A stretch of DNA of 64,000 bases from Yponomeuta sedellus. Taxonomy: Eukaryota; Arthropoda; Insecta; Lepidoptera; Yponomeutidae. Numbering within the stretch: position 1 is the stretch's first letter; the number at the start of each line of letters is the position of its first letter. The notes under the pieces are model-generated. The model was not told the DNA's origin and made no database searches. It was given only the letters and a program-made list of their open reading frames with translations. Positions 4,914-52,756 of the stretch are shown piece by piece. The DNA is taken from positions 11,833,016 to 11,897,015 of the forward strand of contig OW203734.1 in assembly GCA_934045075.1 (NCBI GenBank), given 5' to 3'. Both the position numbers and the translations under genes were made by a program.

Positions 4914-5134
4914 ACATTACTATGTTAACACTATTTTTATTTTTAATGCACTAACCCGTGCTAAGGAACAAATTTAAAAACCTATTTAGAGGCTAAAAAT
5001 TTCACCCATGCCGGGATTCGAACCCGCAACCTCTGGCTATCTGTACCAGATACGGATAGCCAGAGGTTGCGGGTTCGAATCCCGGCATGGGTGAAATTTT
5101 TAGCCTCTAAATAGGTTTTTAAACATTACTATGT
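4914..5134. mobile_element. Head-to-head palindromic SINE family 1 composite with 12-bp target-site duplication
   Basis: ACATTACTATGT flanks the unit exactly at 4914-4925 and 5123-5134. Between them lies a reverse-complement SINE arm (long tail, then tRNA-like box B) joined at about 5040-5055 to a forward arm ending in the shorter tail AAATAGGTTTTTAA. Both arms carry GGGATTCGAACCCGCAACC or its complement, forming an almost perfect inverted repeat. Because the duplication bounds the whole palindrome, it probably inserted as one event. The left tail extends further (TATTTTTATTTTTAATGC) than the right one. Confidence 0.85.
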
Positions 5135-8614: not shown

Positions 8615-9253
8615 TTTCACACCTCCTGCTCGACAATGCTATATTACGTACCGTCAAATATCATCGTAAAGCATAGCCTTGTCTCTCGAGGGCAATAATA
8701 ATGAAGAATTTCCCTAGGGAATAAAGTGATTTGAATTTAGAATGTCAAAATTCGCATGAAAACTATGAAGAGGCCCCGCATTGCAATTCGAAATTCGAAT
8801 TGTTGTTCGAAACTCACCCCTTTTTTCTTTTTTTTCTGAACTACTGTGTCGTGTGACCGCGCGAAACACCAATAAAAAAAAGAACAAAAGGCGCGAATTG
8901 CAAATACGAATTTAAAAGTTATATTCAATTTAAGTTGCTAAGCCGTAAAAGAGTGTGGCCTTTATATTAATAAATATTTTTCAACTTATGCAGCCCTGTC
9001 TTTTTATTGTCTCCCAGATGGTGTGAAAAGTAGAGTATTCACCTCTGGAATAAAACATGTCTTAGTCTCGGGCGGTATGAACCCCTGGCTTCACTCAGGA
9101 CTCTACATAACTCCCTCGCTTCGCTCAGGAGTTAAAATTTAACTCCCTCGCTGCGCTCGGGAGTTAACTCGGAGTCCTTCGCTCCGCTCAGGGTTAAATA
9201 TACCGCCCATGACGTAATACATGGTTTTATTCCCTTAATGCATAATCTACTAT
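8615..9253 (+). mobile_element. Crypton-like element, internally deleted copy 1 of tandem array
   Basis: This unit is the 5' module (CACACCTCCTGCTCGACAATG to about 8967) fused directly to the 3' module (TTTTTCAACTTATGCAGCCC to TAATCTACTATT). The same modules flank the recombinase gene in the third unit at 9883-11957, so the unit is an element from which the gene has been deleted. Both modules are highly similar to those of the other two units. The 3' module contains repeated hairpin-prone words of the type CTCCCTCGCTTCGCTCAGGAG. Confidence 0.8.
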
Positions 9254-9882: not shown

Positions 9883-11957
9883 TTCACACCTCCTGCTCGA
9901 CAATGCCTTATTACGTACCGTTAAATATCATCGTAAAGCATAGCCTTGTCTCTCGAGGGCAATAATAATGAAGAATTTCCCTAGGGAATAAAGTGATTTG
10001 AATTTAGAATGTCAAAATTCGCATGAAAACTATGAAGAAGCTCCGCATTGCAATTCGAAATTCGAATTGTTGTTCGTAACTCACCCCTTTTTTCTTTTTT
10101 TTCTGAACTACTGTGTCGTGTGACCGCGCGAAACACCAATAAAAAAAAAGGAAAAAAGGCGCGAATTGCAAATACGAATTTAAAAGTTATATTCAATTTA
10201 AGTTGCTAAGCCGTAAAAGAGTGTGGACTTTATATTTAATTTCAGTTTTTAATACATATTTTCAACACGATAATGTCGTCAAGTGATAGCGAAGCGTCAA
10301 ATGATTTGACTCCGGAATTTATCAAATCGGACGCAATAGGAATTATAAATAATCTGCTCCCGGAAAAATCCAAAGAGAAATATATGAAAGCGTATGACGA
10401 TTTTACTAAATGGAGAACAACAAAAAAAGTGAAAGTGGTGAACGAATCCGTTCTTTTAGTTTATTTTCAACACATAGCGTCAAGTCGAAAACCAAGCAGC
10501 CTATGGTGTATTTATTCAATGCTAAGGTCAACAATAAGTATCAAACATAACATACAAATAAATACATACAGCAGATTGATAGCTTTTTTAAAGAGGAAAG
10601 CTGAAGGCCATAGGGCAAAAAAATCATTTGTATTTACCACACAAAATGTGGAAACTTTCCTAAATGAAGCACCAGATCGCAACTTCCTCGCCATGAAAGT
10701 AAGTATGCCTACCCTACCTATCTACGATTTTCATTAAATTGTATGGTTTTAGTTTAGAGATAGGTTACATTTTATAGAAATCGCAGCTATAAATACCATA
10801 AACTTACCTTCTTATAACATTACATAAAGTTTGTTATATTATGTAGCTATTTAAATATTAGGCATAATAAATATCCTCTTGAGTTTATATAATTGATAGA
10901 CTTTTTGTTTTGTTATAGGTGGCCATGATTTTTGGAGTAAATGGCGCTTGTCGTGGAGGTGAACTCGTTAACATACGGGTCAACGATATCAAAAAGTATC
11001 CGGATTTAATGTTGGTAAATTTGCCTGATACCAAAACAAAGCGAGAACGCTCATTCGTTGTCCGTGGAGAACAAGCTAAAATTGTAGATAAATATTTAGC
11101 ACTACGCCCTTCTGGCGTTAGTACTGATAGGTTTTTCCTGTATTACTGTAATGGAAAATGCACAAAGCAAGTGATTGGTAAGAATAAAATGGGTGTCATG
11201 CCAAAGGAAATAGCAAAATACCTAAAATTGGAAGATTTCGATCGCTATACAGGGCATTGCTTTAGAAGAACCTCAGCTACAATTTTGGCCGATTCGGGAG
11301 CAGATATCACGCAAATAAAAAGGCATGGTGGCTGGAAGTCCACTTTCGTAGCCGAGGGCTACATAGAAAATTCGATTCAAAATAAGAAAACTATAAGTTG
11401 CCGGATCAATGAAAACATAAATAAAAAAAAGTATAATGTTGATCCGTGGACTCCTTTACCGCCACAACCATCCACATCAGCCACAATAGAAAGCTCGCCT
11501 CCACAGCCACTGTCGACAACCTTCACAGATACAGAAAATACTCAATGTACCTCCACCTCCACCATAAATATACCAAATAGAAATATCAGTATATCACTAC
11601 ATAACTGGACTAACGTATCTAATGTCAATATAAATTTGTAGTTAATTTACGCAATATTTCTCAGCTTAATAAATATTTTTCAACTTATGCAGCCCTCTCT
11701 TTTTATTGTCTCCCAGATGGTGTGAAAAGTAGAGTAGGTATTCACCTCTGGAATAAAACATGTCTTAGTCTCGGGCGGTATGAACCCCTGGCTTCACTCA
11801 GGACTCTACATAACTCCCTCGCTTCGCTCAGGAGTTAAAATTTAACTCCCTCGCTGCGCTCGGGAGTTAACTCGGAGTCCTTCGCTCCGCTCAGGGTTCA
11901 ATATACCGCCCATGACGTAATACATGGTTTTATTCCCTTAATGCATAATCTACTATT
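9883..11957 (+). mobile_element. Crypton-like tyrosine-recombinase element, full-length copy 3
   Basis: The 5' module (9883 to about 10240), recombinase gene (10273-11641) and 3' module (about 11668-11957) are complete. There are no terminal inverted repeats, as expected of Cryptons. The outer flanks of the whole array share AACATTT (8610-8616 and 11958-11964), compatible with a short crossover or target repeat. Internal junctions share CTACTATT followed by TTTACACC or TCACACC. Confidence 0.8.
10273..11641 (+). CDS. Crypton-type tyrosine recombinase, two exons, apparently intact
   Basis: The exons are 10273-10698 and 10919-11641, joined in phase 0 by a GTAAGT...ATAG intron, giving 382 codons. 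The N-terminal part (about 1-140) is a SAM-like/core-binding region (LPEKSKEKYMKAYDDFTKW). The C-terminal catalytic domain shows the tyrosine-recombinase set: Arg154 in GACRGGEL, His255-x-x-Arg258 in GHCFRRTSA, Trp281 in HGGWKS and the candidate nucleophile Tyr290 in AEGYIEN. A Ser/Thr/Pro-rich low-complexity tail follows. The family (Crypton elements) cuts and joins DNA through a covalent tyrosine link and a circular intermediate. All key residues are present and the frame is open, so the element may be recently active. The ATG is the first in frame, with an upstream leader that belongs to the element. Confidence 0.85.
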
Positions 11958-23200: not shown

Positions 23201-26200
23201 GGGTGTGAAGATTTGAGTTTGTACCACAGAAAAAAAAATATTCTGATTTTGTTTCAGTGGTCGTGGTTCAGTGGGTAGGCCGCCTACTCGATGAAACGAA
23301 GTAAATTAAAAAGGCGGCAGGTCTAGCAGAGCACAGGCGAGGTTGGCGTGACGGTGGAGAGGCCTATTCCCAATGGGCGTCTTCCATAGCCGGTATCAAG
23401 GATGTTTTAGCCAAAAGTTCTTAGGCGGTAAAGGGAGATAGATTAACATTAGCATTAAGTCCACGTTTTGTACATTAAGTATCTTTTGTGTAAAAAGGAA
23501 TTCATAATGCGAAGGTGGCGGGACGACCTTACGACCTTTTCGCCAGGCTGGCAGGATGTGGACAGAAAGGAGTAGAAACTGAAAGGAGAGGCCTTTGTCC
23601 AGCAGTGGGACACAACCGAGGCTACATAAATAGGAAGCCCTAAAGTTGAGGCTACACTTATTATTATTATTATTAAATTCTTTATTGAACGAGTAAGAAT
23701 TGTACAACTGGTGGGCTTAATACTAAATAGTATGTTATTCAAGCCAACCAATAGGTGATGTATATACCGTATCGGAAATCGTGTTGTAATTATTAATAAT
23801 ACTGGCTAATCTCATTTATTCTTTGTTATTCAAAAATGTTGTTTTTTTATTAAATATGTTTTTTTGTTCCTTTTTATAACTTTGATTTTTCTCCGTACTT
23901 CAACAAGAGCTGTATCAATAAACAGTATGTGATATTTAAAAAACCTATTTAGAGGCTAAAAATTTCACCCATGCCGGGATTCGAACCCGCAACCTCTGGC
24001 TATCCGTGCCAGCGCTCTTCCAATTGAGCCAATGGGTGACTCACCGGCATCAGTGAAATTTCGAACCTCTTTACACTATTCTATGTATTACGTACAGGCA
24101 GCGACATCTGGCTTAAGCAAATTGCATCACTTACAGCCCCGACCACCTACTTTGCAGTTAGGTTTTACATCGGAACGATATCACTGTACCCACACGATTA
24201 TACTATTTTTAATTTTAATGCACTAACCCGTGCTAAGGACAAATTTAAAAACCTATTTAGAGGCTAAAAATTTCACCCATGCCGGGATTCGAACCCGCAA
24301 CCTCTTGCTATCCGTGCCAGCGCTCTTCCAGAGAATAGTGTAAAGAGCGTAATGATCGATTTAACCGGTTAACTCGAGTTAAATGAGTTAACCTGGGCTG
24401 ACGCAAGTGGGCCTTAATAGGTATAACAAGGAAGTACAATGCTCGACCTAGCTTGACGCCTGCGCTTGACGGGCTGCGCCTCATGCCAACTGCAAATCAT
24501 GACAGTTTAATGCTCTTTACATAGCCGAGTCTTCCTACTCGTTAATCTGTGAGTTAGTCAACTTGACAATGTAGCTACATCTGTCACAGTAAACCATGAA
24601 CTGTAGTTCTACGAAATAGAACTATAATTCAGCTGGCTAAGCTTACCTGATAATTTGTTTCTTGATAGCTGGCTTCACTTCAAGATGGATGAGCTTCCGG
24701 GCCATGATGAGACCAGTGGACTTGTGGCGGACTTTCATAACTACACCGCCATTGCCTTGACCTGAAGAAAAAGAGATTGTGATGTTGTTAGCTTATATTG
24801 AAGATAACAATGTTTTAGTATAGTTATTTTTATGGCAGTATCTGCTGTACCAGGATTACCATTATTATGGATTACCAGGATTACCATTACTCCTAAGATG
24901 TTGGAGCAGTGAGGTGTTGCAAGATTTGCAAAATACAAGGGTCAGAATTTTTCTTTTCTTGAGAAAATCTGTAGGTTTTGGTGTTCAGAGGCAAAACTTC
25001 ATTTAAAATTATAATTAATTTCATGTCGTTATAAAAAGCAATGATTGAATAATTATTATACTATAATTTTTTAAGACACTGTCAAAGGGAAACTACAATT
25101 TTATTGTATCAAGTAGATTAAATTCAATAACTTGAAATCAGGAAATAAAATTATTAAGAAAGTTAACCCGAATTATTACATAATATAGGAAGTCTTCTGT
25201 ATGTTTCAAAATAAGTAGGTATGTTTTGATTTAAATTAAGTAAGCCATGTCGACCATGTGTAAAAAAAGAAAAGTTGCCAGAAAAATTGCCATTAGCGGT
25301 ATATCAGTAGTCACGGGACGAAAACACATTGTGCACCTGAGAGCGATTCACCTACAGCCTATGTCCACCCTGGAGATCCATTTTAAATATTGGTAAAAGA
25401 TTATTTTAAATTGGATAAGTTACTTTCAGAGATTACCCCTAGAAACATTTCCTCTTTATAATATTAGTGTAGATAAAAAAATCTGATTTTAATTGTTGCA
25501 AATCAAATACAAAAGTTAATATAAGTAGGTACACTTAATATAGATGTGTGATAAAAAGGAGATAGGCTCAGCATAACTGCTGTATTAGATGAACAATCTC
25601 GTTTTGCACATAATGATAATAATGTGTTAGAAATGCAGCTCAGTCAGTAAGATAATAGTGGTTCATAAAGATTACCCCATGATACACAATGATGAATCAC
25701 CATGAACTTGTACAAAATGCATCGATATTCTATTACACACAATGCACATACAAAGTTATACATGATTACACTATTTTTATTTTTAATGCACTAACCCGTG
25801 CTAAGGAACAAATTTAAAAACCTATTTAGAGGCTAAAAATTTCACCCATGCCGGGATTCGAACCCGCAACCTCTGGCTATCCGTACCAGCGCTCTACCAA
25901 TTGAGCCAATGGGCGACTCACGGCATCAGTGAAATTTCGAACCTCTTTACAATATTCTCTGTATTACGTACAGGCAGCGACATCTGACTTAAGCAAATTG
26001 CATTACTTACAGCCCCGACTACCTACTTTGCAGTTAGGTTTAACATCGGAACGATATAACTGTACTCACATGATTACACTATTTTTATTTTTAATGCACT
26101 AACCCGTGCTAAGGAACAAATTTAAAAACCTATTTAGAGGCTAAATAGGTTTTTTAATTAATTAATTAATTAATTTTTTAATTAGGAACCTATTTTAGGT

Positions 26201-27805
26201 TGCGGGTTCGAATCCCGGCATGGGTGAAATTTTTAGCCTCTAAATAGGTTTTTAAATTTGTTCCTTAGCACGGGTTAGTGCATTAAAAATAAAAATAGTG
26301 TAATCATGTGAGTACAGTTATATCGTTCCGATGTTAAACCTAACTGCAAAGTAGGTAGTCGGGGCTGTAAGTAATGCAATTTGCTTAAGTCAGATGTCGC
26401 TGCCTGTACGTAATACAGAGAATATTGTAAAGAGGTTCGAAATTTCACTGATGCCGTGAGTCGCCCATTGGCTCAATTGGTAGAGCGCTGGTACGGATAG
26501 CCAGAGGTTGCGGGTTCGAATCCCGGCATGGGTGAAATTTTTAGCCTCTAAATAGGTTTTTTAAAGTTATACATGTATAGTTGATAATTTCTTTCCTTTC
26601 TTTCTTTTTTTTTTAAGCTGAATCTTGGGATAAATATCCTAAAATCTACAATGACAAAAATATAAAATGCCCGACCATTGTGACTTATACCACATAAGTG
26701 TGATAACAAAGTATCAAATTCCATTTACAAGCTATTCTTACCAAGTTCACCAAGCTTCTCAAAATCATCATCACTGAGCTCTCCTATCTTCTCCTTCTGA
26801 CAGAGAAAGACCTCTATCCTGCGCCTCTGGGTGTCATCCATCTCAATCTGCTCGAGACGCTCTGTGAGGGCCTCTATGCTGGTCTTGGATTTCCCGGCCA
26901 AACCCTGACGTCTATAATACACATTGAAGTGTTGTAAGATTGAAACTTAGTGTGTGTTTGTTGATACAGCCCTGGTGTACAGTAGAACAGCTGAGGTGTT
27001 GAAACACACTGAATACCTTGGAAATTGTACAGTTCTGCTCAGCATGCAACTATTAGTAACTACTAGTTGCATGCTGTACATCTGTTGTAGTTAGACCTGA
27101 TATTTACCGCACTTAGCCTCATAATTGGTCCATTGTACGTAGCCAGCGCTGAGGTATGTTAGCACTTCAGACAAACTAGGGTTTCCTCACAATGTTTTCC
27201 TTTAAAATTAGCAAGTGGTTTTGCTACTATAATTTCACAAATGTACATAACTACAAAACAAAGTCAAAAGTACATGCCGGGATTCGAACCTACAACCTCC
27301 TGATTGAGAAGCCGGGAGTTCTATCGCTCCCCTACCACCGCTTAAAGAAAACATGCAACTAATAGATGCAGTGTCACAGTAAATGTAGAGCAGGATTCCT
27401 GGCTGCTTGCTTTGTTTACAGCAAGCTAAATAATGATTGATTTCTGTCTTAATACTGTAGTAACATCAATTACTGTCTGTGATTGTCTCTGATTGACTGT
27501 CTGTGAAGCTAGAGCTGGAACTGTGTGGACCGTGCCTACGCTACTATTGGGTTACAGCTACATGCGTTAGGATCTGGTGTGATATTCATTTTTAGGGTCT
27601 CATGCGCCAAGGCTCAACGGCTGGTAAATAACATCGATATTATCGACAATCATGCAGTAGCTGTAATAGCTATAGGGTGTACTTACTCAGTAGCCGTTGC
27701 AGATTTTAACTGAGGGGTCATGTTAGAAGGTGTTACCGCCGGGACAGTGTCTATAGAACCCGGCGGAAGTGTTAAATTCAATTTATTTTTCGACATTTTA
27801 CTCAT
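20248..27805 (-). CDS. Dsor1: Dual-specificity MAP kinase kinase (MEK1/2, Dsor1-type), eight exons
   Basis: The product phosphorylates ERK on Thr and Tyr in the Ras-Raf-MEK-ERK cascade. Exons 5' to 3' are 27687-27805, 26742-26911, 24647-24761, 23038-23198, 22036-22229, 21684-21848, 20714-20881 and 20248-20367. All have GT/AG boundaries and matching phases, giving 403 codons (mammalian MEK1 has 393). Visible features: N-terminal basic/hydrophobic ERK-docking motif ([10 protein letters not shown]), an export-signal-like helix ([10 protein letters not shown]), the glycine loop GQGNGGVV (97-104), ATP lysine 119 in MARKLIHLE, catalytic Asp212 in [11 protein letters not shown] at 230-232, and the activation segment SMANSFVGT with Raf-target serines 240 and 244. 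There is no truncation or missing residue. The start may be codon 1 or Met4. Introns 2 and 3 hold SINE arrays; intron 3 also holds a LINE tail. Confidence 0.96.
23490..23640 (+). repeat. 3' end of an RTE-like LINE in MEK intron 3
   Basis: Translates as [16 protein letters not shown], a stop, then [14 protein letters not shown], the same C-terminal segment as at 39907-40194. It is a 5'-truncated dead insertion, opposite in strand to MEK. Confidence 0.7.
23936..24349 (-). repeat. SINE family 1 tandem dimer with inverted end, MEK intron 3
   Basis: Two minus-strand copies follow each other (tRNA-like heads near 23972-24030 and 24280-24330), joined through the family linker (GCAGCGACATCTGGCTTAAG and the tail AATGCACTAACCCGTGC). 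The second copy ends abruptly in AGAGAATAGTGTAAAGAG on the plus strand, which is a head segment in inverted orientation. So this array also contains a head-to-head joint. Confidence 0.75.
25752..26575. mobile_element. Large palindromic SINE family 1 composite with 13-bp target-site duplication, MEK intron 2
   Basis: AAAGTTATACATG flanks the unit at 25752-25764 and 26563-26575. The left arm (to about 26150) is the reverse complement of a SINE dimer and the right arm (from about 26170) is a forward dimer. They meet at an AT-rich joint of repeated TTAA words. The arms are nearly identical for roughly 380 bp. Tails face outward: a long tail with TATTTTTATTTTTAATGC on the left, a short AAATAGGTTTTTT on the right. 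The tRNA-like part reads GCCCATTGGCTCAATTGG with box B GGTTCGAATCC. Transcribed within MEK pre-mRNA this would form a very long intronic hairpin. Confidence 0.9.
27097..27345 (-). repeat. SINE family 2, full-length, MEK intron 1
   Basis: It has the complete tRNA-like head (box B as GGTTCGAATCCC on the minus strand, TTCTCAATC arm) and the body to GCTAAGTGCGGTAAA. It lies in antisense to the head of the 1713 copy and in sense with MEK transcription. Confidence 0.8.
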
Positions 27806-28288: not shown

Positions 28289-31200
28289 ACTCCCTCTAGG
28301 GGGTCGATGTTACTCCACGTCCGTAAGAATAACCGCCACATACCTTACACGTGACCCCTGGGTGGTGCTAAGAGAGTGACAAATCCGGCAGCTGCACTGT
28401 TCCCTGAGAGCCTCGCAGCAAACACTGGTCTACTACACTATACAATGCTCCTGAATAAACACAATGCTAAACCAAACGGCTCTTCTAAGAGCCCATTGAC
28501 AAAAGATATCGGACCTACAATCCGTATCTGCTCCCTTAACGTAGAAGGCATAAGCCGATCTAAAACAGAATGCTTACAAAAGGTACTATATGAACTTGAC
28601 ATTGACGTTGTGCTGCTTCAAGAAACGCACACACCGGACGCTGCTCAACTCGCCCGGAGAGGGGATATCGCCGGCTACAACCTAGTCGCAGCTACCTACC
28701 ACGCACAATATGGCACTGCAATCTACCTGCACCATTCTATAGCACAATCTGCTACTGTCATCTCGAACAATATAGACAACGAGAACATCGCCACTACATC
28801 AATTGAGCTAGGTGAAACTAAGATCACTAATATTTATAAGCCACCGAAAAGCCAATGGCCGTCGCCAGCCTTACAGGGGCTCGATCACCCCTCCATATAC
28901 ATAGGAGACTTCAACAGCCATCACACAAACTGGGGTTATAACAACAGCGATGAGAATGGTAAAAGATTAGTAGACTGGGCCGACAAATCAAACTCATTCC
29001 TTGTACACGATAATAAAAGCAGTGGCTCATTCAAATCCGCCCGATGGGGAAGAGACTATAACCCGGACCTTGTCTTCGTGTCCAAAGATCAAGAAAACCG
29101 CCCCCTACCTGTACAGAAAACAATCCTAACGGACTTTCCAAAAAGCCAACACCGACCCGTTCTAATAGAAATTGGACTAAAAATACCGATAGTCCAATCC
29201 TACCCTGGCCCTCGTTGGAATTTCCAAAAGGCCAACTGGGAAAACTATGCCAAAAAACTGGACGAATGTATACGATGGATCGAACCCTTGCCCAGTAACT
29301 TCGGTAGATTTAAAGGACTACTAATAGCCGTAGCTAAGCAATCGATTCCACGAGGGTACAGAAAACAGTACATCCCTTGCTGGAACGACAGTACAGAGGA
29401 GCTCTGGCAAGAATTCAATAGGACTGCCGACAAGAACACAGCCCATCAACTTATTGAATCCTTGGACCATGCTAGACAGGAAAAATGGGAAAACACCGTG
29501 GGCAATTTGAACTTTACGCATTCTAGCCGAAAGGCATGGCACATTCTAAGAAGGCTAACTACAGGGAAAACATCAACTATGAAACCCAAGCTCAGCAAGG
29601 CTAGCCCGAATGACATAGCAAACAGAATAGTGCTCCTCTCAAAAGCCCCCAGCCACAAAGCCCACACACGCAAAATACGTAAAGAACTAAAAACTATAAA
29701 ATCCATAACAACACCCAATAGTATGTATAGCGCCCCCGTACAGGTCGGCGAAGTAACTCTCGCTATCAAGCATATAAAAATGAACAAAGCCTGTGGAGAT
29801 GACGGAATATTCCCGGAGTTCTTAAAGAACAGTGGCCCACGAGTGCAGACATGGCTGGCAAAGTTCTTCTCTAACATCATTTTAACAGGAAAGATTCCAC
29901 CCGAACTTAAAGCTTCCAAAGTAATTGCTATACTGAAGCCGGAAAAACCTGAAGACAATGCAGAAAGCTACCGGCCCATAGCACTCCTGAGCATCGTGTA
30001 CAAGCTCCTGGAACGAATAATCTACAACCGCATTTCGGACACAATTGATCAGAACATTCCTCAAGAGCAGGCAGGCTTTCGCCCGAAACGAAACTGCTGC
30101 GATCAGGTTCTTGCATTAACCACTCATATAGAAAGAGGTTTTCAGCGTGGTGAGAAGTCATCGGTTGCCTTCATCGACCTAACGGCTGCTTACGACACCG
30201 TATGGAGGCAAGGGCTACTAATCAAACTCCTCAAGATCATACCATGCATTAGGATCTACAGACTTATAGAGGATGCCCTTACGAACAGACCATTCCAGGT
30301 ATTTCTAGGCGAACACTCAAGCAGTAGACGATCCCTAAATAATGGCCTTCCGCAAGGCTCAGTGCTGGCCCCGCTACTTTTCAATGTGTATACTCACGAC
30401 TTCCCTAGCACTTCATCAAGGAAATTTGGATACGCTGACGACCTAGCCCTAGTAACCCAGACTAAAAGCTTTGAAACTGCCGAAAAGGTACTGGAAGCAG
30501 ATCTGATGGCGATGGACGAGTACTACAAACATTGGCGTCTGTGTCCCAACGCGACCAAGACAGAAGTAAGCTGCTTCCACCTCAACAACAAACAAGCAGA
30601 CAAAAAACTAAATGTGAGATTCCGAAACACCACTCTTCAGCATAACCCTTACCCGAAATACCTCGGAGTTACCCTCGATAGGAGTCTCACATACAAACAA
30701 CATCTCAGTAAACTGGCAGGAAAAATGAAAAGCAGAAACAGTATCATACAAAAGCTCACTGGTACCTCCTGGGGCACTAGTGCTGCATGCCTAAAGACCT
30801 CGGCCATGGCACTGGTTTATTCAACGGCCGAATACTGTGCCCCTGTGTGGAAGAACAGCGTTCACGTGGCGGCGGTAGATACAGAGCTCAACCACACGAT
30901 GAGGTTAATTACGGGATGTATAATGCCAACCCCAACCTACTGGCTGCCTGCTCTCAGCAATATCGCTCCCCCACACATCCGTAGAGAAATGTGCCTGAAA
31001 CGAGAGCTCGAGAAAATTGCGACAAACCCGTTACTACCCATTAACGACGACCTGTGCCATCTCGCGACTACAAGGCTTAAGTCACGCGACCCACCCGCCA
31101 AATCCTACCATACCTATAACCCTTTGTGGAGTCCTAACAATGCATGGTTAGATGAGTGGAAAACCAACAGCTCTCGAAAAGACATTTTTGAACTCAACAC

Positions 31201-31568
31201 CCAGGAACGACCCGCGGGCTTCAAAACAACGCGAAACGTTTGGTGCCGCCTAAACCGCCTCAGGACGGGTGTGGGCAATTGTGCCTACCTATGGCACAAA
31301 TGGGGCTGGTGTGATTCGGCCGCCTGCGAATGCGGTCACCCACAAAAAACCATTGATCACATAGTCTACGAATGTGAATTGACCAAGTATCATGGGATGA
31401 AAGATGATTTCATAAACCTCTCCGGCGACTCGGTTACGTACCTTAATAATTGTAAATTTTGACTTCAAATTTTTGACATTCCATTATTATTAATTATAAA
31501 CGCATTGTGTCTGGTTGTGAGGCCATTGTAAAATGCCATACGATAAATAAATAAAATAACTCCCTCTA
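28289..31568 (+). mobile_element. Structurally complete non-LTR retrotransposon with 10-bp target-site duplication
   Basis: ACTCCCTCTA at 28289-28298 is repeated at 31559-31568 and delimits a 3260-bp element. It has a short GC-rich 5' leader (28299-28375), one long ORF and a short 3' tail ending in CGATAAATAAATAAAATA, a microsatellite-type rather than poly(A) tail. It lies about 480 bp upstream of MEK, in the opposite orientation. Full length, an intact ORF and identical duplications suggest recent insertion. Confidence 0.9.
28376..31462 (+). CDS. Endonuclease-reverse transcriptase polyprotein of the non-LTR element
   Basis: The frame is open for 1028 codons. It follows an in-frame stop and the first ATG is at 28445, so about 1005 residues from that ATG. 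An APE-type endonuclease occupies about residues 45-265 (LNVEGI, LLQETHT, GDFNSHHTNWG near 177-187, PDLVFVS). The reverse transcriptase follows (DDGIFPEFLKN, AGFRPKRNCCDQ, FIDLTAAYDTVW, GLPQGSVLAPLLF) with catalytic YADD at 686-689. A C-terminal Cys/His segment (CECGHPQKTIDHIVYEC) ends the protein. No separate gag-like ORF1 precedes it. The domain order fits Jockey-superfamily or related single-ORF LINEs; the clade is not assigned. All catalytic motifs are present. Confidence 0.92.
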   Translation: MTNPAAALFPESLAANTGLLHYTMLLNKHNAKPNGSSKSPLTKDIGPTIRICSLNVEGISRSKTECLQKVLYELDIDVVLLQETHTPDAAQLARRGDIAGYNLVAATYHAQYGTAIYLHHSIAQSATVISNNIDNENIATTSIELGETKITNIYKPPKSQWPSPALQGLDHPSIYIGDFNSHHTNWGYNNSDENGKRLVDWADKSNSFLVHDNKSSGSFKSARWGRDYNPDLVFVSKDQENRPLPVQKTILTDFPKSQHRPVLIEIGLKIPIVQSYPGPRWNFQKANWENYAKKLDECIRWIEPLPSNFGRFKGLLIAVAKQSIPRGYRKQYIPCWNDSTEELWQEFNRTADKNTAHQLIESLDHARQEKWENTVGNLNFTHSSRKAWHILRRLTTGKTSTMKPKLSKASPNDIANRIVLLSKAPSHKAHTRKIRKELKTIKSITTPNSMYSAPVQVGEVTLAIKHIKMNKACGDDGIFPEFLKNSGPRVQTWLAKFFSNIILTGKIPPELKASKVIAILKPEKPEDNAESYRPIALLSIVYKLLERIIYNRISDTIDQNIPQEQAGFRPKRNCCDQVLALTTHIERGFQRGEKSSVAFIDLTAAYDTVWRQGLLIKLLKIIPCIRIYRLIEDALTNRPFQVFLGEHSSSRRSLNNGLPQGSVLAPLLFNVYTHDFPSTSSRKFGYADDLALVTQTKSFETAEKVLEADLMAMDEYYKHWRLCPNATKTEVSCFHLNNKQADKKLNVRFRNTTLQHNPYPKYLGVTLDRSLTYKQHLSKLAGKMKSRNSIIQKLTGTSWGTSAACLKTSAMALVYSTAEYCAPVWKNSVHVAAVDTELNHTMRLITGCIMPTPTYWLPALSNIAPPHIRREMCLKRELEKIATNPLLPINDDLCHLATTRLKSRDPPAKSYHTYNPLWSPNNAWLDEWKTNSSRKDIFELNTQERPAGFKTTRNVWCRLNRLRTGVGNCAYLWHKWGWCDSAACECGHPQKTIDHIVYECELTKYHGMKDDFINLSGDSVTYLNNCKF

Positions 31569-32420: not shown

Positions 32421-33343
32421 GGGTGGTATTACACTGGGGTGCGATGCCAGATTACCTTCCCGTGTGCCCTTCCGCTTCCGTTCCTACTGATTCATCTTGA
32501 ACCAGTGGGAAGGGTAAGTGGCAAGGGCCGGTGCACCCTGGGCGCTGGTCAGTAACTTCTCTTTATAGGATCTTGCTGGTCAGCGGCGAAAAATCTGGCG
32601 GGAGGGGTCGCGTGGGCCCTGTTTCACTTTGTGGAGCGGGACCCAGGGGACCAACCGAATGAAGGACCGACTGGGGGGGGCGCCGCGGCGCGGAAGCGCG
32701 CGCGCCTCGTACCAGTCGGACCAGAGTGGCCGCCGGGACGCGGAGGGTCGGGGGACCCTCCGCCTCCATCACGGCGGGCCGGAAGGCGCCCTTGCGTGTT
32801 CCGAGGGTGCCTTCTGGCACGGAGGGGGCCCGCGCGGTCGCTCACCGCCTTCTCTGCTTTCAGAGAAGTGCTGGTGGGCGACGTGACGGGCCTCACGTGT
32901 GGGGCGTGTGGGGACCGGGACGCTTGGGCCCCCACGCGCCTCAACGAGGAGGTGCGCCGCCCTCCCCGTCTCATCGACCGGGTTGCGATGGGATGGAGGG
33001 GGCGGCGCGTTGGGGCGTATGGGGGCCAAGATCATACGCACTTGGCCCCTATGCGCTCCAACGAAGAGATGCGGCGTTCCTTCGCCCTGTTCCTGCGGGC
33101 AGGGTAGGGACGCCGCCGAAGGAGTGCCCGAAAGGGCGCCCGCAGACGGGGTCGCGGAAGTGTGCGCAAGCGTCCCCGTGGCCCCGTCCTTTGCGGTGCG
33201 GAGGAACACCCCAGGAGTTTTAGTCGGTATACCGCCCTTTTCAGGGCGGGGAGTCCGACATAACCACTGTGCTCCCCGGAGCCGGTGGTACCCGTAATTG
33301 GGGTTTCTCCTGGGTGAAAAAAAAAAAAGGGTGGTATTACACT
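32421..33343 (+). mobile_element. GC-rich retroelement copy 1 of a tandem pair
   Basis: The body 32436-33328 (893 bp) is flanked by GGGTGGTATTACACT on both sides (32421-32435 and 33329-33343) and ends in a run of twelve A after TCCTGGGTG. It is strikingly GC-rich and CpG-rich within an AT-rich genome. A near-perfect hairpin (GGGGCCAAG...CTTGGCCCC) lies at 33022-33060, and a similar structured unit with GTGTGGGGACC just upstream. Long ORFs in several frames are a by-product of base composition. It behaves like a short non-LTR element or a large SINE; the family was not recognised. Confidence 0.75.
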
Positions 33344-34258
33344 GGGGTGCGATGCCAGATAACCTTCACGTGTACCCCTCCGCTTTCCGTTCCATCTGAT
33401 TCTCTATGTACCAGATGGAGGGGCAAGGTGGTGGGGTCGGTGCACCCTGAGCGTTAGTCAGTAGGTTGGTATCGGAACTTACTGGCTAACGGCGAATAAT
33501 CTGGCGGGAGGGGTCGCGTGGGCCCTGCTTCACTTTGTGGAGCGGGACCCAGGCGACCAACCGATTGAAGGACCGACTGGGGGGGCGCCGCTGCGCGAAA
33601 GCGCGCGCGCTTCGTACCAGTCGGACCAGAGTGGCCGCCGGGACGCGGAGGGTCGGGGGACCCTCCGCCTCCATCACGGCGGGCCGGAAGGCGCCCTTGC
33701 GTGTTCCGAGGGTGCCTTCTGGCATGGAGGGGGCCCGCGCGGTCGCTCACCGCCTTCTCTGCTTTCAGAGAAGTGCTGGTGGGCGACGTGACGGGCCTCA
33801 CGTGTGGTGCGTGTGGGGACCGGGGTGCGTGGGCCCCCACGCGCCTCAACGAGGAGGTGCGCCGCCCTCCCCGTCTCATCGACCGGGTCGCGATGGGATG
33901 GAGGGGGCGGCGCGTTGGGGCGTGTGGGGGCCAAGATCATACGCACTTGGCCCCTATGCGCTCCAACGAAGAGATGCGGCGTTTTCTAGCCCCGTCGTCG
34001 AGCACCGACGGGGCAGAAGCGCCGCCGAAGGAGTGCCCGAAAGGGCGCCCGCAGACGGGGTCGCGGAAGTGTGCGCAAGCGTCGCCGTGGCCCCGTCCTT
34101 TGCGGTGCGGAGGAACACCCCAGGAGTTTTAGTCGGTATACCGCCCTTTTTTTTTTAGGGCGGGGAGTCCGACATAACCACTGTGCTCCCCCGAGCCGGT
34201 GGTACCCGTAATTGTGGTTTCTCCTGAGTGAAAAAAAACAAAAGGGTGGCATTACACT
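33329..34258 (+). mobile_element. GC-rich retroelement copy 2 of a tandem pair
   Basis: The body 33344-34243 (900 bp) follows copy 1 directly and ends in an A-rich tail and a third copy of the target word, GGGTGGCATTACACT (34244-34258). The main body from about 33500 is nearly identical to copy 1. The first 150 bases are clearly more diverged, and a short segment near 33985-34020 (AGCCCCGTCGTCGAGCACC) replaces a different one in copy 1. The frame 33535-34158 stays open but has no recognised domain. Confidence 0.75.
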
Positions 34259-34795
34259 TATCAAATAACTTTGTCCAATGTACGATTTGATCAAAGAAAT
34301 TGGAAGAAATTGGGCGACTGTAACAAATGTCTTGGAAACACCGATATTTGATCAAATATTAATGACACTTAAATCAAAATGGCTGCAAACAAGATATCGT
34401 GGACGATTCCAATGACAATATTTTTAATAAATACTTTTTTTTGTTTTGACTTTTGGTTTTTCATTAACACCCTTACTCATACTCAATGCTCGATTAGCGC
34501 GGTAGTAAAGTTATTCAATTGGATCTGTCAAACTCGCACTAAGCACTCAGATCCTGACGTTTGCGATAGCATGTTTGACAAGTCCCTCCACCTCCACAGT
34601 CGCCCGTTCCGTTCGCGACTTTAGACAAAACAGACATGTTGCTACTGATGTTGTAATGCTATGTGCTATACTATAACATATTACAGTACTAAGCCTTGTG
34701 CATATTAAAAATAAGAAACTGCCAATTGCCTACCAAATCCGCGCCTTAAGCAGGGTCGGACTGGGTCTAAGGAGCCCGGGCGGCATTATGACCTA
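34259..34795. other. Intergenic between retroelement pair and MITE
   Basis: AT-rich. GATTTGATCAAAG and TTTGATCAAATATT hint at a small inverted-repeat element that was the target of the retroelement. No gene is supported. Confidence 0.3.
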
Positions 34796-36727: not shown

Positions 36728-39700
36728 TTAAGGGGATTTCAATTTAGTCAAGAACGAATTTATACCCAGCTGATTTTTCTTCACTTCAGGCGTATTCTTT
36801 TTGGGTTCAACCTTCTTGGTTTCTGGTTTGGGCTTTTCAGCTTTAGTTTTTTTCTTTTTATCGCTTTTGGGACTGGCCTGTTCGCCTTCAGGCGCCTTTT
36901 TCTTTCTGACCTTCTTTTTCTCTGTGTCCTCAGATTCCGGAGCAGGCTGGAGAAAAGGCGTTAGGTCTTCCATGACCATAGCTAGTTTGCCGAAGTAGTT
37001 CCATAACGCATCCACGCATTTGTCGGGCCTTCCGCCATCGCTGGTCTCCCAGATCAAGCCGTAGAGCCTAGGCTTGAGTTTTTCAGTTGGTTTCTTCAAT
37101 TCCGATTCAAATTCGTCTTCGAGATGCTTCAGCCTAGCTTTTTGCGTTTCGGGGGAGAAGGAAAGAATGTCACGGTCTTCTTCTTCATCCATTGTGGCTT
37201 CCTGGAAATTTAAAAGTATTTTTATTAAACAAGAGCCATATTTTATAAGTACCGCACCATTTTCTGTCAAGATGAAAATTCTGCATGTAAATACACGCGC
37301 TAGTTTGAATAACTGAACACATAGTAACATGGTTACATAACAACTGAGTTTGTTATTGGGGTAACGCTGGGCACAAAGACTTTGAAGGCAACCTTTTACT
37401 TGTACTAAGGCTGAAGTCTGACCATAATATATTCACCATGTTGGATAACAACTCAATTAGGTTTCATGGCAGCTAACTTCATCTATAACATAGCCGTGGG
37501 CCATGAAGATCTTGTGGTCACCACTTGCACAAAAGTTCCATGTCTCACAAACTAAGGAAAAGCTACCTGACCTCGAGTCAGAGATAGCTGTGGGGCACAA
37601 AGACTCGTTGTGAAACTCATAGTCATGCTCGGGCTCCGCGTTACTGTCAGCGGAGATCCTGTCGAGGCTCTCGCCAGACTCTGCTCCTCTAGCTAGAAAA
37701 GCGTCTAGGCTAAAGAGCAACTGACCTCATCACTGAGATAGCCGTGGGGCACGAAGACCTCGTTGTCAACCTCATAGTCATCCTCGGGCTCCGCGTCACT
37801 GCCGGCGGCGCTCCCGTCGAGACTCTCGCCCTCTTGCTCCTCCTCCCATTCGTCGTCACTATCCACCTCGTAGTCGAGGTGTTTCTGATAAAAAAAATTT
37901 TATTGAGCAGAACAAAACTTATAAATGATGCAAATTACTTCCACCAGATGTCGCTGCCTGTATGTAATACAGAGAATATTGTAAAGAGGTTCGAAATTTC
38001 ACTGATGCCGGTGAGTCGCCCATTAGCTCAGTTGGAAGAGCGCTGGCACGGATAGCCAGAGGTCGCGGGTTCGAGTCCCGGCATGGGTGGAATTTTTAGC
38101 CTCTAAAATAGGTTTTTAAAACTTATAAAGTAACTGTGAACACCAAACTAATTTAAATTGTATCTTGGGGTTCACAGTGCTCCATTCGGTATGAACTAAA
38201 ATATATCACAACATACCTATTATATCTTCCATATCAAAATAAAGTAAGAAATAACATGCATATGGCAAAACTATGATATGGCTCAAATATATTTTAAATT
38301 ATATAAAACTACATATAACATAACGAGGTTTGAAGATGTCTAGAGTTTGGAGAAAGGGCTGTTTGAAACAGTAATATCCTAATAATATTAAGATGATTAT
38401 TTCATGTTAGTTTAGTCAAGCAGTATTGTTATTTTGCTCCTTGGCTTACTGATGGACTAAGTTCAATGTGAACTGGTTACGCGCACCAAATCCTGAGCGA
38501 TTCCCATCATTTAACAGTCAAACTATTATGAAATTTAAAAGTTACACAATTGGAATCGCTCAGGATTTGATGTGCGTAATTAGCAATGTTCAGTGCTCGT
38601 GGCCATATCAGCTAGGCAGCGCTTAAGTAACAAATGTGTTGCTAACTGGTACAAATGATTTGTCAGGCTCTATAATTACACTCCTGGACAGATCTATTGG
38701 CCCACCTTAGAGTTCAGGTTTCGATGGCCCCTACCTAAATATGGTTGCTAGATTGAACAAAAACTATTGATGCAGTTTTAAACCTGATACATTTTACATA
38801 AACCTGGTTCAAAACTGAATAAAAACTTTTTCCTTGACCTAATATAAATTTTTAGCAAGGACTAAATGAAACTGAAAATGCAAGGTGGGCCAATAGATGT
38901 GTCCAGAAGTGTATGATATTTATCATCATAGGTCTCAATATTATGGAATGCGGTGTCACGCATTTGAGAATGTTGCAGGAAATGTAGATAGTGGCTTCTA
39001 TTTTTAAAAATGTTGTCATTTAATAATACAGAAGTTGTATCACTTACCTCATCCTGTTGAAAGGGCCTACGCGGCTTGACAACTGCGCTTTTCTTGCGCC
39101 ACGTACCCCAGTACGGCGGCCGTCGGTTCTCGTGGAAGCTGAACAGTTTCGGCTTAAGTTTCTCCCGAACCGCTGATTCGCAGGTTATCACTTCGCCAAC
39201 GTCGTCCAGGGTAGGCAGTTCATCTTCTGGACATAAAATAATGAAGCAATTAAGGGTCAGTCAGGAACAAGTAATAAATTAGGCTTTTAGAAGTACCATT
39301 AGATAATGCCCTAAATAAATCCTCTATAGAAAATTTCTTTTAATTTCTTTTCTTTATAGATAATAATTTGACAGCTTCAATGCCACACTCAACCAATTTT
39401 GGTTTATGGAAATAGAAGTATAGATAGTTTTACTCCCTCTACGTATAGATTGTTTATACAGCATTTAATAGCACTTTACCTATACCAGATACAGGTGAAG
39501 TGATCAGACAAAGAACAAATTTCCAATAACTTCATAGAATTTAAGATGGTGGATTTAATATTATCAGATTGAACTATTGGCAATTAGTGAGTAGTTTAAA
39601 TCAGTTACAAATCAAATACAAATACTGCAATAGAAGAAGTCATCTGATTTATAAAGTTTCATACTTTGCATGGGTGAGGCTGTACTTGCACAGGAATATT

Positions 39701-46977: not shown

Positions 46978-47837
46978 TTTGAATTTATAATGCTGCGAAT
47001 TATCATTAATATCATTATGTAACGAAACTCGTCATTCGAAGTTCGATTTATCAAATTTCAGAATACCCAAACAATAAAACGTTCGGAAACTAATAAACCT
47101 TTAAAATGAAAATTATTTGGTAACGTTGTAATTAAATATCTAATTAAATAATAAAATATAATGAATACACTGAACTAGAGAAAAAAATAAAGAAAAGGTT
47201 TTAGAAAAAATACGAAGGAGATATGCACAAATAATTTATAGTTTTAAAAATCTTTATTGGTACAACACAATACTATGGGTGAAGTTTCAGAACGTAACTT
47301 TAAAAATAGCGGGAAACAAAAATCAATATATTTCTCTTTCTCCTTCTTTTGTTTTTCGGTAGGTAACTACAATTTAGTGTTGCATATCGCACCCGTATAA
47401 CAAGACAGCGCTAAGTCGAAAAACTTATTTTTTCACAATTGACGAAAAACAGTTAACTTTTTTTGTATTGAAGTTATTGCCAAAGTCTTAAATGTTTCAT
47501 TTAATGTATACAATGTGAATTAATATTATATTGTTTTTTCCCCTTACTAAACATCGAGCAAGAGTTAATATGCATTTTTCGATTTAACTCTCTATTTCTT
47601 AATTATCTCACGAAACAAAAACAAATTATTTTGAGATACGTCCTTTTTGTAGAATGATTATGAAATAGTGCTGTATTATTTTGCCATATATTATTTAAGT
47701 TCAGATATACAATAAAGACCTATTTGATTTCTTTTCAGGAATTTTCCTGTTGTTACTAAATTTAAAGATAAAAGTTACGAATTTCAGCATTTTTATTAAA
47801 ACTTCATTGATAAAATAGCGTTTACAAAATTATTAAG
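46978..47837. other. AT-rich intergenic DNA
   Basis: Nothing coding. AAAGTGATTTGAATTTA near 46971 echoes the Crypton 5' module (AAAGTGATTTGAATTTAGAA at 8720), too short to call an insertion. Confidence 0.3.
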
Positions 47838-48146
47838 GGAAGGAAACATCAAGTTTCACTATACTATATCTAGTTACTGCATAGGTACTATTGACTGTGA
47901 ACAATGTTATACTGTTAGGTAAAAAAATGCTTTACATCTGGAAAGGAAACATCAAGTTTCACCATTCGATATCTAGTTACTGCATAGGTACTATTGACTG
48001 TGAACAATGTAATACTGTTAGGTAATAAATGCTTTACATCTGGGAAGGAAACATCAAGTTTCACCATACGATATCTAGTTACTGCATAGGTACTATTGAC
48101 TGTGAACCATGTAATACTATTAGGTAAAAAAATGCTTTACATCTGT
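47838..48146. repeat. Tandem triplication of a 102-bp unit
   Basis: Units start near 47838, 47940 and 48042 with GGAAGGAAACATCAAGTTTC and end AATGCTTTACATCTG. They differ at only a few positions, so the expansion is recent. Confidence 0.85.
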
Positions 48147-52440: not shown

Positions 52441-52460
52441 TCCTCTCTAGTTGAACAAAT

Positions 52461-52756
52461 AACTATTAGTTGTTTACCGAATTTCATGAGTGATCTGTGG
52501 GCAATGTATGCAACATTATGCTTGTGAAACATAAAGTTAAATTATGATAAATAAAATTGATTTTCCATAAGATTAGATGTTATCGACCAAAAATATCTAT
52601 TTTTGGTCGATAACATAACTATTAGTTGTTACCGAATTTCATGAGTGATCTGTGGGCAATGTATGCAACATTAGGTATGCTTGTGAAACATAAAGTTAAA
52701 TTATGATAAATAAAATTGATTTTCCATAAGATTAGATGTCATCGACCAAAAATAGA
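52461..52756. repeat. Direct duplication around a 36-bp palindrome
   Basis: A unit of about 140 bp (AACTATTAGTTGT to ATCGACCAAAAATA) starts at 52461 and again at 52617, nearly identical. At the joint (52579-52614) the first copy's end is mirrored, forming a perfect palindrome (GTTATCGACCAAAAATA, two bases, and its complement). Confidence 0.8.

Follow-up and report, generated by a model that had tools for sequence, protein, structure and literature searches.

A palindrome in an intron of the MEK gene of the lepidopteran Yponomeuta sedellus was analyzed within a 64,000-nucleotide stretch of DNA (assembly GCA_934045075.1, contig OW203734.1, positions 11,833,016 to 11,897,015 of the forward strand; hereafter, the window). 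The palindrome was probably formed by one insertion of a non-autonomous, tRNA-Ser-bearing retroelement through bidirectional target-primed reverse transcription (TPRT) of the type used by Penelope-like elements (PLEs). Priming from both cut strands and 5'-to-5' joining had been proposed in the first-pass annotation of this DNA, and both are borne out by duplications of approximately 12 bp and by microhomology at both ends, found family-wide. Tandem copying, the pairing of one short with one long end and the PLE-like anatomy go beyond that annotation.

Anatomy of the palindrome

Positions are given in window coordinates, and positions in the repeated unit are numbered u1-308 in the tRNA sense, with u1 at window position 26310. 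Self-comparison revealed two arms of 333 nt (25813-26145 and 26232-26564) that were 100% complementary and 86 nt apart; the inverted arms had earlier been described as nearly identical. The sequence AAAGTTATACATG was located at 25752-25764 and again at 26563-26575, and the palindrome is thus bounded as a unit by a 13-bp duplication, as had been claimed. Five of the 13 bases (ACATG) also match the element beside its end; because ACATG matches both target and element, these five duplicated bases represent microhomology. This value of 5 bases applies to the long end, where alone microhomology was measurable at this locus.

Both arms were found to be built from one 308-nt unit, which is repeated for 1.25 turns on the left and 1.19 turns on the right. 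The initial description of the arms as short interspersed element (SINE) dimers therefore holds with respect to a repeated unit but has to give way to these fractional turns. Similarly, the long left and short right tails noted earlier do reflect a difference between the ends, which is recast here as outer ends at approximately u303 (left arm) and u252 (right arm). The features of the locus are as follows.

25752..25764, no strand: target-site duplication, left copy AAAGTTATACATG; the last 5 bases are microhomology with the element
25760..26067, minus strand: left arm, complete 308-nt unit (u1-308), with a long-type outer 3' end at about u303
25841..25916, minus strand: tRNA-Ser(GGA)-like region of the left arm (ARAGORN; Rfam RF00005, 38 bits)
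26068..26145, minus strand: left arm, 5'-truncated second turn (u231-308), stopping at the imperfect palindrome TTTAGAGGCTAAA
26146..26196, no strand: 51-nt centre, consisting of TAGGTTTTTTAA (the left arm's end as copied by fold-back) followed by (TTAA)n-like filler
26197..26309, plus strand: right arm, 5'-truncated turn (u196-308)
26310..26562, plus strand: right arm, second turn, with a short-type outer 3' end at about u252
26461..26536, plus strand: tRNA-Ser(GGA)-like region of the right arm (ARAGORN; Rfam RF00005, 38 bits)
26563..26575, no strand: target-site duplication, right copy, an exact match to the left copy

The RNA of 25813-26564 was predicted to fold at approximately -650 kcal/mol, with 360 pairs over 752 nt. 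Many comparable hairpins may be transcribed in this genome. Hypothetically, as raised in the first-pass annotation, the hairpin could affect MEK through splicing, RNA editing or siRNA.

The 308-nt unit

The region u152-227 of the unit was recognized as tRNA-Ser(GGA)-like by ARAGORN and as tRNA by Rfam (38 bits). The tRNA-related sequence that defines tRNA-derived SINEs is accordingly present by both programs, with the RNA polymerase III (Pol III) boxes not scored separately. When folded as a circle, the majority unit was more stable than 100 shuffled versions of it (z -4.6). Across the family, single arms contained from 0.07 to 6.25 turns.

When the window copy and part of the L026 array (L-numbers denote loci of this genome) were scanned against Rfam, no self-cleaving ribozyme was detected, and the hammerhead core CTGANGA was absent from both strands of the circular unit. 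A scan of the stretch containing the PLE L069 likewise yielded no ribozyme, so minimal variants may escape such scans. Matches to Rfam miRNA precursors in the window copy fell under the gathering score and were set aside, as they are thought to reflect the palindrome only. The unit is too small for a frame encoding a TERT-like reverse transcriptase and a GIY-YIG endonuclease, both of which are present in L069 of the same genome.

Family survey

The genome was searched with the palindrome; 40 of 1112 candidates were scored and gave 176 matches. Thirty-nine loci were fetched with their flanks, and matches of at least 60 bp in these loci and in the window were grouped into 67 clusters. Head-to-head copies accounted for 42 clusters, a rate to be read as biased; none was tail-to-tail, 21 were single and 4 were mixed. 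Five clusters lay in the window: three plainly head-to-head, one with a 17-nt second arm and one with one arm; two shorter fragments were not counted. The four window copies other than the MEK palindrome are listed below.

4928..5123, no strand: head-to-head copy, long end left and short end right, with a 12-bp duplication, ACATTACTATGT
23936..24347, no strand: copy whose minus arm is long and whose plus arm spans 17 nt (u109-125), with no clear duplication
37945..38120, plus strand: one-armed copy ending at u255, with an 11-bp match, AAACTTATAAA
53628..54064, no strand: head-to-head copy, long end left and short end right, with an exact flanking match of only 8 bp

An exact flanking match of at least 10 bp was found in 31 of the 42 head-to-head inserts, its length being exactly 12 bp in 19 and 13 bp in 7 of them. 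Mismatched pairs of left and right flanks reached 10 bp in only 10 of 1700 cases. The genome search for inverted SINE pairs with common duplications that the first-pass annotation had suggested thus returned such pairs in quantity. The commonest duplication in the family was 12 bp long, compared with 13 bp at the window locus.

Outer ends and target cut

A short end was defined as one at u244-262 and a long end as one at u294-308, both ranges being fixed after the ends had been inspected. Among the 31 duplicated head-to-head inserts, 30 combined one short and one long end, and neither short-short nor long-long pairs were found; the sole exception was L024, with one end at u106. Were short and long ends equally likely and each end chosen independently of its partner, the probability of obtaining 30 unlike pairs in 30 would be close to 1e-9.

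In a related subfamily (L039:461, L047:467, L047:2288 and L074:3109-3420), the tail past u288 was approximately GAATATAATCATGT. These copies stop there and lack clear duplications; the subfamily is probably older.

Microhomology between the target duplication and the template was found at both kinds of end. It averaged 2.10 bases at the long end (measurable at 21 of 30 sites) and 2.23 bases at the short end (26 of 30 sites), compared with 0.46 +/- 0.16 and 0.50 +/- 0.16 bases, respectively, for random 12-mers from the flanks. The base preference at the cut site was alike on the two strands, approximately TT^GT, although weak over the 30 sites. A 12-bp duplication with cDNA on both sides would fit a staggered cut in which both 3' overhangs prime synthesis.

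Joint between the two cDNAs

The inner ends varied among loci. Ends at u231, which lies on the imperfect palindrome TTTAGAGGCTAAA, were common, but their frequency was inflated because the search query favoured u231 arms. Nineteen inner ends fell at u230-232 (16 from head-to-head and 3 from single copies), and in 16 of these 19 the sequence continued with at least three bases of TAGGTTTTT, the predicted fold-back copy; most of the ends switched to other sequence after these bases. The idea that u231 is an RNA processing site was dropped, as the bases following it are those of the fold-back. The window centre, with TAGGTTTTTTAA and its TTAA-like filler, would be explained by fold-back followed by microhomology joining of two cDNA ends, and its 51 nt (26146..26196) by self-primed and slipped synthesis at that join.

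One template, copied repeatedly

Variants were compared in 66 columns covered by at least three units. Twelve were present in all units of the locus, 51 in exactly one unit and 3 in an intermediate number. Four of the 12 all-unit columns (one in L009, two in L010 and one in L041) held private variants, each confined to one locus but seen in both of its arms. Since these private variants were common to both arms and to all tandem units, it may be concluded that one template sequence was copied repeatedly.

The distances between arms point in the same direction. At 26 of 31 loci, the distance between the two arms fell below the median distance to other loci, although many of the overlaps compared were short. 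The arms of L009 showed 0 differences in 868 positions, compared with 0.36% to the nearest other locus, and those of L041 showed 0 in 1156, compared with 0.82%. The turn numbers of the two arms were uncorrelated (rho -0.007; maximum 6.25). Judged from the sequences, both the variants and the turns would be accounted for if one monomer, most simply in circular form, was copied again and again; two identical sister RNAs may also be compatible with the variant pattern.

Comparison with Penelope-like elements

Copies from three abundant PLE families of this genome have an anatomy like that of the unit's inserts. Seven PLE loci (L069-L075) were inspected, and both boundaries could be set for four palindromes (L069, L071, L073 and L075). 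Their exact flanking matches were 12, 12, 13 and 12 bp, respectively, and each had an extension of approximately 25-39 nt at one end only. Neighbouring GIY-YIG matches formed 20 head-to-head and no tail-to-tail pairs among 150 matches listed, and 32 and none, respectively, among the 150 matches of a second list.

The protein of L069 is that of a PLE. Its homologs were annotated with RVT_1, PF26215 and PF28514, and the named top matches were mostly lepidopteran. The YVDD and GIY-YIG residues were invariant in an alignment of 40 sequences. In structure searches, the nearest fold to the reverse-transcriptase part was telomerase; the GIY-YIG fold did not appear in these searches, the rows of which covered mainly residues 163-614, and the GIY-YIG assignment is therefore based on the conserved residues.

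The unit family shares with PLEs its head-to-head inverted copies (in the biased sample of 67) and, in the 31 inserts, partial tandem copies, a 5'-truncated first copy and variable inner ends. The most frequent duplication length in the family (12 bp, 19 of 31) matches the lengths at the PLEs of this genome. A tail extension is found at one outer end in 30 of 31 inserts and in all four bounded PLE palindromes. In contrast to PLEs, the unit is 308 nt long and non-coding, has a tRNA-Ser-like core and has no sequence in common with three PLE families. Its tail, moreover, is on exactly one end in those 30 inserts, whereas it is described as optional in the accessible portions of the PLE papers.

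For rotifer PLEs, the available text of PMC3846280 describes inverted pseudo-long terminal repeats (pLTRs), one of which optionally carries a 31-bp tail, together with duplications of 8-10 bp; head-to-head copies are given there as the most frequent, and self-priming on an antisense template is suggested. A purified Anolis PLE was shown to cut and extend both strands and to start internally on its RNA, the tail lying between the start sites; no strand difference was visible in vitro, and the later steps of insertion were left for validation (PMC11167929). Short nonautonomous Penelope elements are mentioned for Heliconius in the accessible part of PMC6685494, and these may be related to the 308-nt unit.

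Several candidates for a PLE partner of the unit were discarded. Tail matches at L049, L054, L059, L063 and L052 look like nearby SINE copies, as does the stretch beside the GIY-YIG remnant L074. The GIY-YIG profile PF01541 gave a sole match in this genome, L048, which was taken by eye for a host SLX1-like gene; the profile overlooked the PLE endonucleases of this genome.

Some further observations on PLEs were made. Two head-to-head pairs (G000:C3:17771313-17775040 and G000:C20:7186657-7190384) are spaced identically, and their frame lengths are mirror images of each other (306/791 and 791/306); either a segment was duplicated or a whole palindrome moved. The remnant L074 (G000:C28:2050062-2050723), a GIY-YIG fragment of PLE family C, is duplicated in tandem with a 300-bp period. 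An 8-bp tandem repeat occupies approximately 1.5 kb beside a PLE copy (L070:1-1541) and leaves all three forward frames open.

Proposed mechanism and alternatives

That insertion of the unit works like PLE insertion is well supported, and the unit is likely either a PLE derivative or an element moved by a PLE of this genome. In the proposed course of events, an endonuclease would cut both strands approximately 12 bp apart, leaving 3' overhangs. Each overhang would pair through a few bases with the same RNA at an internal start site, one overhang at u255 and the other at u302. Starting from both overhangs, the reverse transcriptase would then circle the RNA repeatedly or, if the template is multimeric, run along it. 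The cDNAs would finally be joined at their 3' ends by microhomology, often after fold-back on a TTTAG-AGG-CTAAA hairpin, with a net 5'-to-5' join as the result. The least secure parts of this scheme are the circular template, which is suggested by the star-like variation among units, and the supply of the enzyme by a PLE of this genome.

A number of observations weigh against PLE-type insertion from one circular template. The proportion of head-to-head clusters is biased because central loci were picked by similarity to the palindrome itself, and genuine one-armed copies with duplications occur (e.g., L021, L038:24 and L042:761). In eleven of the 42 head-to-head copies no duplication reaches 10 bp, and the ends of these eleven are less regular: L014, L017 and window copy 53628 are short and long, L038:750 has two short ends, L039:2342 has two long ends, three copies of the related subfamily have an end at u288, and L022, L031 and L042 have an odd end. 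L015, initially scored as single, proved to have a second arm of approximately 20 nt resembling a fold-back; both of its ends are short, and its duplication is 13 bp long. The arms differ by more than the median distance in 5 of the 31 loci (L011, L016, L019, L024 and L045); at L016 the excess stems from a gap in one of the two arms. A variant pattern like that of a circle would also be expected if a young array gave rise to homogeneous multimeric transcripts. Nor did the scans of the unit reveal a self-cleaving ribozyme by which circles would be generated, although the PLE L069 stretch gave none either. Among the PLEs, L072 is rearranged or runs off its stretch and shows no duplication, and L070 and L074 are not palindromes. 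Finally, comparison of the unit with PLE families A, B and C revealed no detectable common sequence (scores of 19-25, with shuffled means of 20-23); more PLE families may exist in this genome, so the partner of the unit could be among them.

Self-priming, in which one strand primes and the first cDNA folds back and is copied into the second arm, was considered as an alternative. It would explain why 16 of the 19 inner ends at u230-232 continue for at least three bases as fold-back on TTTAGAGGCTAAA would template, and it predicts the second arms starting at approximately u239 in L014, L015, L017 and perhaps L030. It also resembles the proposal made for PLE inverted repeats, there with an antisense template, in the available part of PMC3846280. 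Self-priming nevertheless predicts equal outer ends and is largely refuted by the two unlike ends of 30 of the 31 duplicated inserts. The unrelated turn numbers, the many second arms that start away from the fold-back position and the target microhomology at both ends also argue against it, and we regard it as unlikely. Fold-back looks like a frequent joining step and not the usual source of the second arm. The first-pass annotation had instead assumed two separate SINE RNAs, one captured by each cut strand. This explanation is compatible with the anatomy, and some arms do differ (L011 at 9 of 328 positions and L019 at 8 of 504); it is contradicted by the private variants in both arms of L009, L010 and L041, by the zero differences at L009 and L041 and by the 51 of 66 variants confined to a single unit. 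It survives only as two sister RNAs of one source, and in its original form we consider it quite improbable.

A palindromic DNA element or a later inverted duplication, arising as a fold-back transposon, by SINE-SINE recombination or as an assembly error, would have in its favour that such events classically yield perfect palindromes and that assembly of inverted repeats is difficult. Considering that the inner junctions and turns vary by locus while two outer ends are fixed, that each insert has its own duplication, and that PLE palindromes of like design arise independently, this origin is very improbable. A miniature element of the long terminal repeat (LTR) type with a tRNA-like LTR, multimerized by recombination, was also weighed, as the unit order resembles LTR-internal-LTR and tRNA-bearing terminal-repeat retrotransposons in miniature (TRIMs) such as Helenus exist according to the accessible text of PMC10886601. 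It is contradicted by the duplication length (4-5 bp in Helenus compared with mostly 12-13 bp here) and by the head-to-head habit; in addition, the 5' ends are variable and no fixed LTR pair was seen in the family. We give this possibility almost no credence.

PLE-type insertion of the unit may, more broadly, represent a third route for SINEs, in which a tRNA-bearing, ribozyme-less circular RNA would parasitize Penelope-type machinery by two-ended rolling-circle TPRT, the overhangs being obliged to use different start sites on one RNA. This wider proposal is offered tentatively. No report of a tRNA-bearing SINE of PLE type was found in searches of an openly licensed library. The new elements here are the paired short and long ends, the microhomology at both, the single-template pattern and the tRNA-bearing non-coding element itself. 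PLEs constitute a third class of eukaryotic retroelements; the 2024 biochemistry leaves the completion of their insertion to be validated (PMC11167929), and their inverted copies had earlier been attributed to self-priming (PMC3846280, available part). A short, abundant and young family with clean duplications supplies statistics that long PLEs cannot. If the proposed mechanism is correct, PLE-type insertion explains the stock of perfect palindromes in this genome, and the rule of two start sites would explain the inverted pLTRs and one-sided tail of PLEs generally.

Relation to other mobile elements

In twin priming of long interspersed elements (LINEs), two target strands prime on the RNA, after which the cDNAs are linked in inverted orientation; the two halves derive from neighbouring segments of a single linear RNA and do not overlap. 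The unit family is similar in that two strands prime and the products are joined inverted, but its arms overlap and may run several turns. The first-pass annotation had likewise set the event apart from ordinary twin priming.

PLEs have been proposed as helpers of retrozymes. Metazoan retrozymes are small non-coding tandem units thought to spread via circular RNA, with copying in multimeric form (PMC7761336, available part). The unit family is likewise small, non-coding and tandem. It differs in its tRNA-like core, in that no hammerhead or other ribozyme was found in the unit, and in its head-to-head inserts, none of which are mentioned for retrozymes in the accessible portion of that paper.

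The lepidopteran tRNA-derived SINEs HaSE1, HaSE2, PxSE1-3 and Metulj resemble the unit in having a tRNA-related region with Pol III boxes; compared by description, they differ in that none is reported as head-to-head in the accessible parts of PMC3272025, PMC8010984 and PMC6685494. According to the available text of PMC3272025, HaSE1 and HaSE2 have intronic copies and a tRNA part ascribed to another tRNA; the tail of HaSE1 is RTE-like, and the 3' region of HaSE2 is mariner-like. By this description, HaSE2 was rejected as the identity of the unit. Helenus TRIMs, like the unit, are small non-autonomous retroelements with a captured tRNA-like sequence. They have a tRNA-like LTR, duplications of 4-5 bp, a primer-binding site and a polypurine tract (PMC10886601, accessible part) and use LTR machinery, whereas the duplications of the unit are mostly 12-13 bp. 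Capture of a tRNA, known in LINE-dependent SINEs and in the LTR-dependent Helenus, is suggested by the present family for the PLE world too.

MEK setting and other features of the window

The location of the palindrome within a MEK intron, claimed in the first-pass annotation, was confirmed. The exon at 26742-26904 matched dSOR1/MAP2K1 (best E 6.7e-18), its GT donor lies at 26741-26740, and another MEK exon is found near 24.7 kb; because MEK exons are present on both sides, the insert is intronic. It begins approximately 165 bp into the intron, counted in the direction of the gene (minus strand).

26742..26904, minus strand: MEK (MAP2K, dSOR1-like) exon just upstream of the insert-bearing intron; edges and splice sites read by eye

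Elsewhere in the window, a frame of 1035 codons at 28355-31459 (plus strand) encodes endonuclease/exonuclease/phosphatase and reverse transcriptase domains and is apparently a LINE with an intact frame. A tyrosine-recombinase frame (10919-11641; Phage_integrase, 9e-11), preceded by a frame at 10240-10737, is flanked by copies of one 32-bp tandem repeat at 9083-9162 and 11786-11865; the segment 9083-11865 is perhaps a Crypton-like element with repeat ends. The region 32500-34400 is GC-rich and contains two similar blocks, unlike the remainder (window average 52% at 32-36 kb). Further tandem repeats were found at 47837-48145 (102 bp, 3 copies) and 52459-52754 (159 bp, 1.9 copies).

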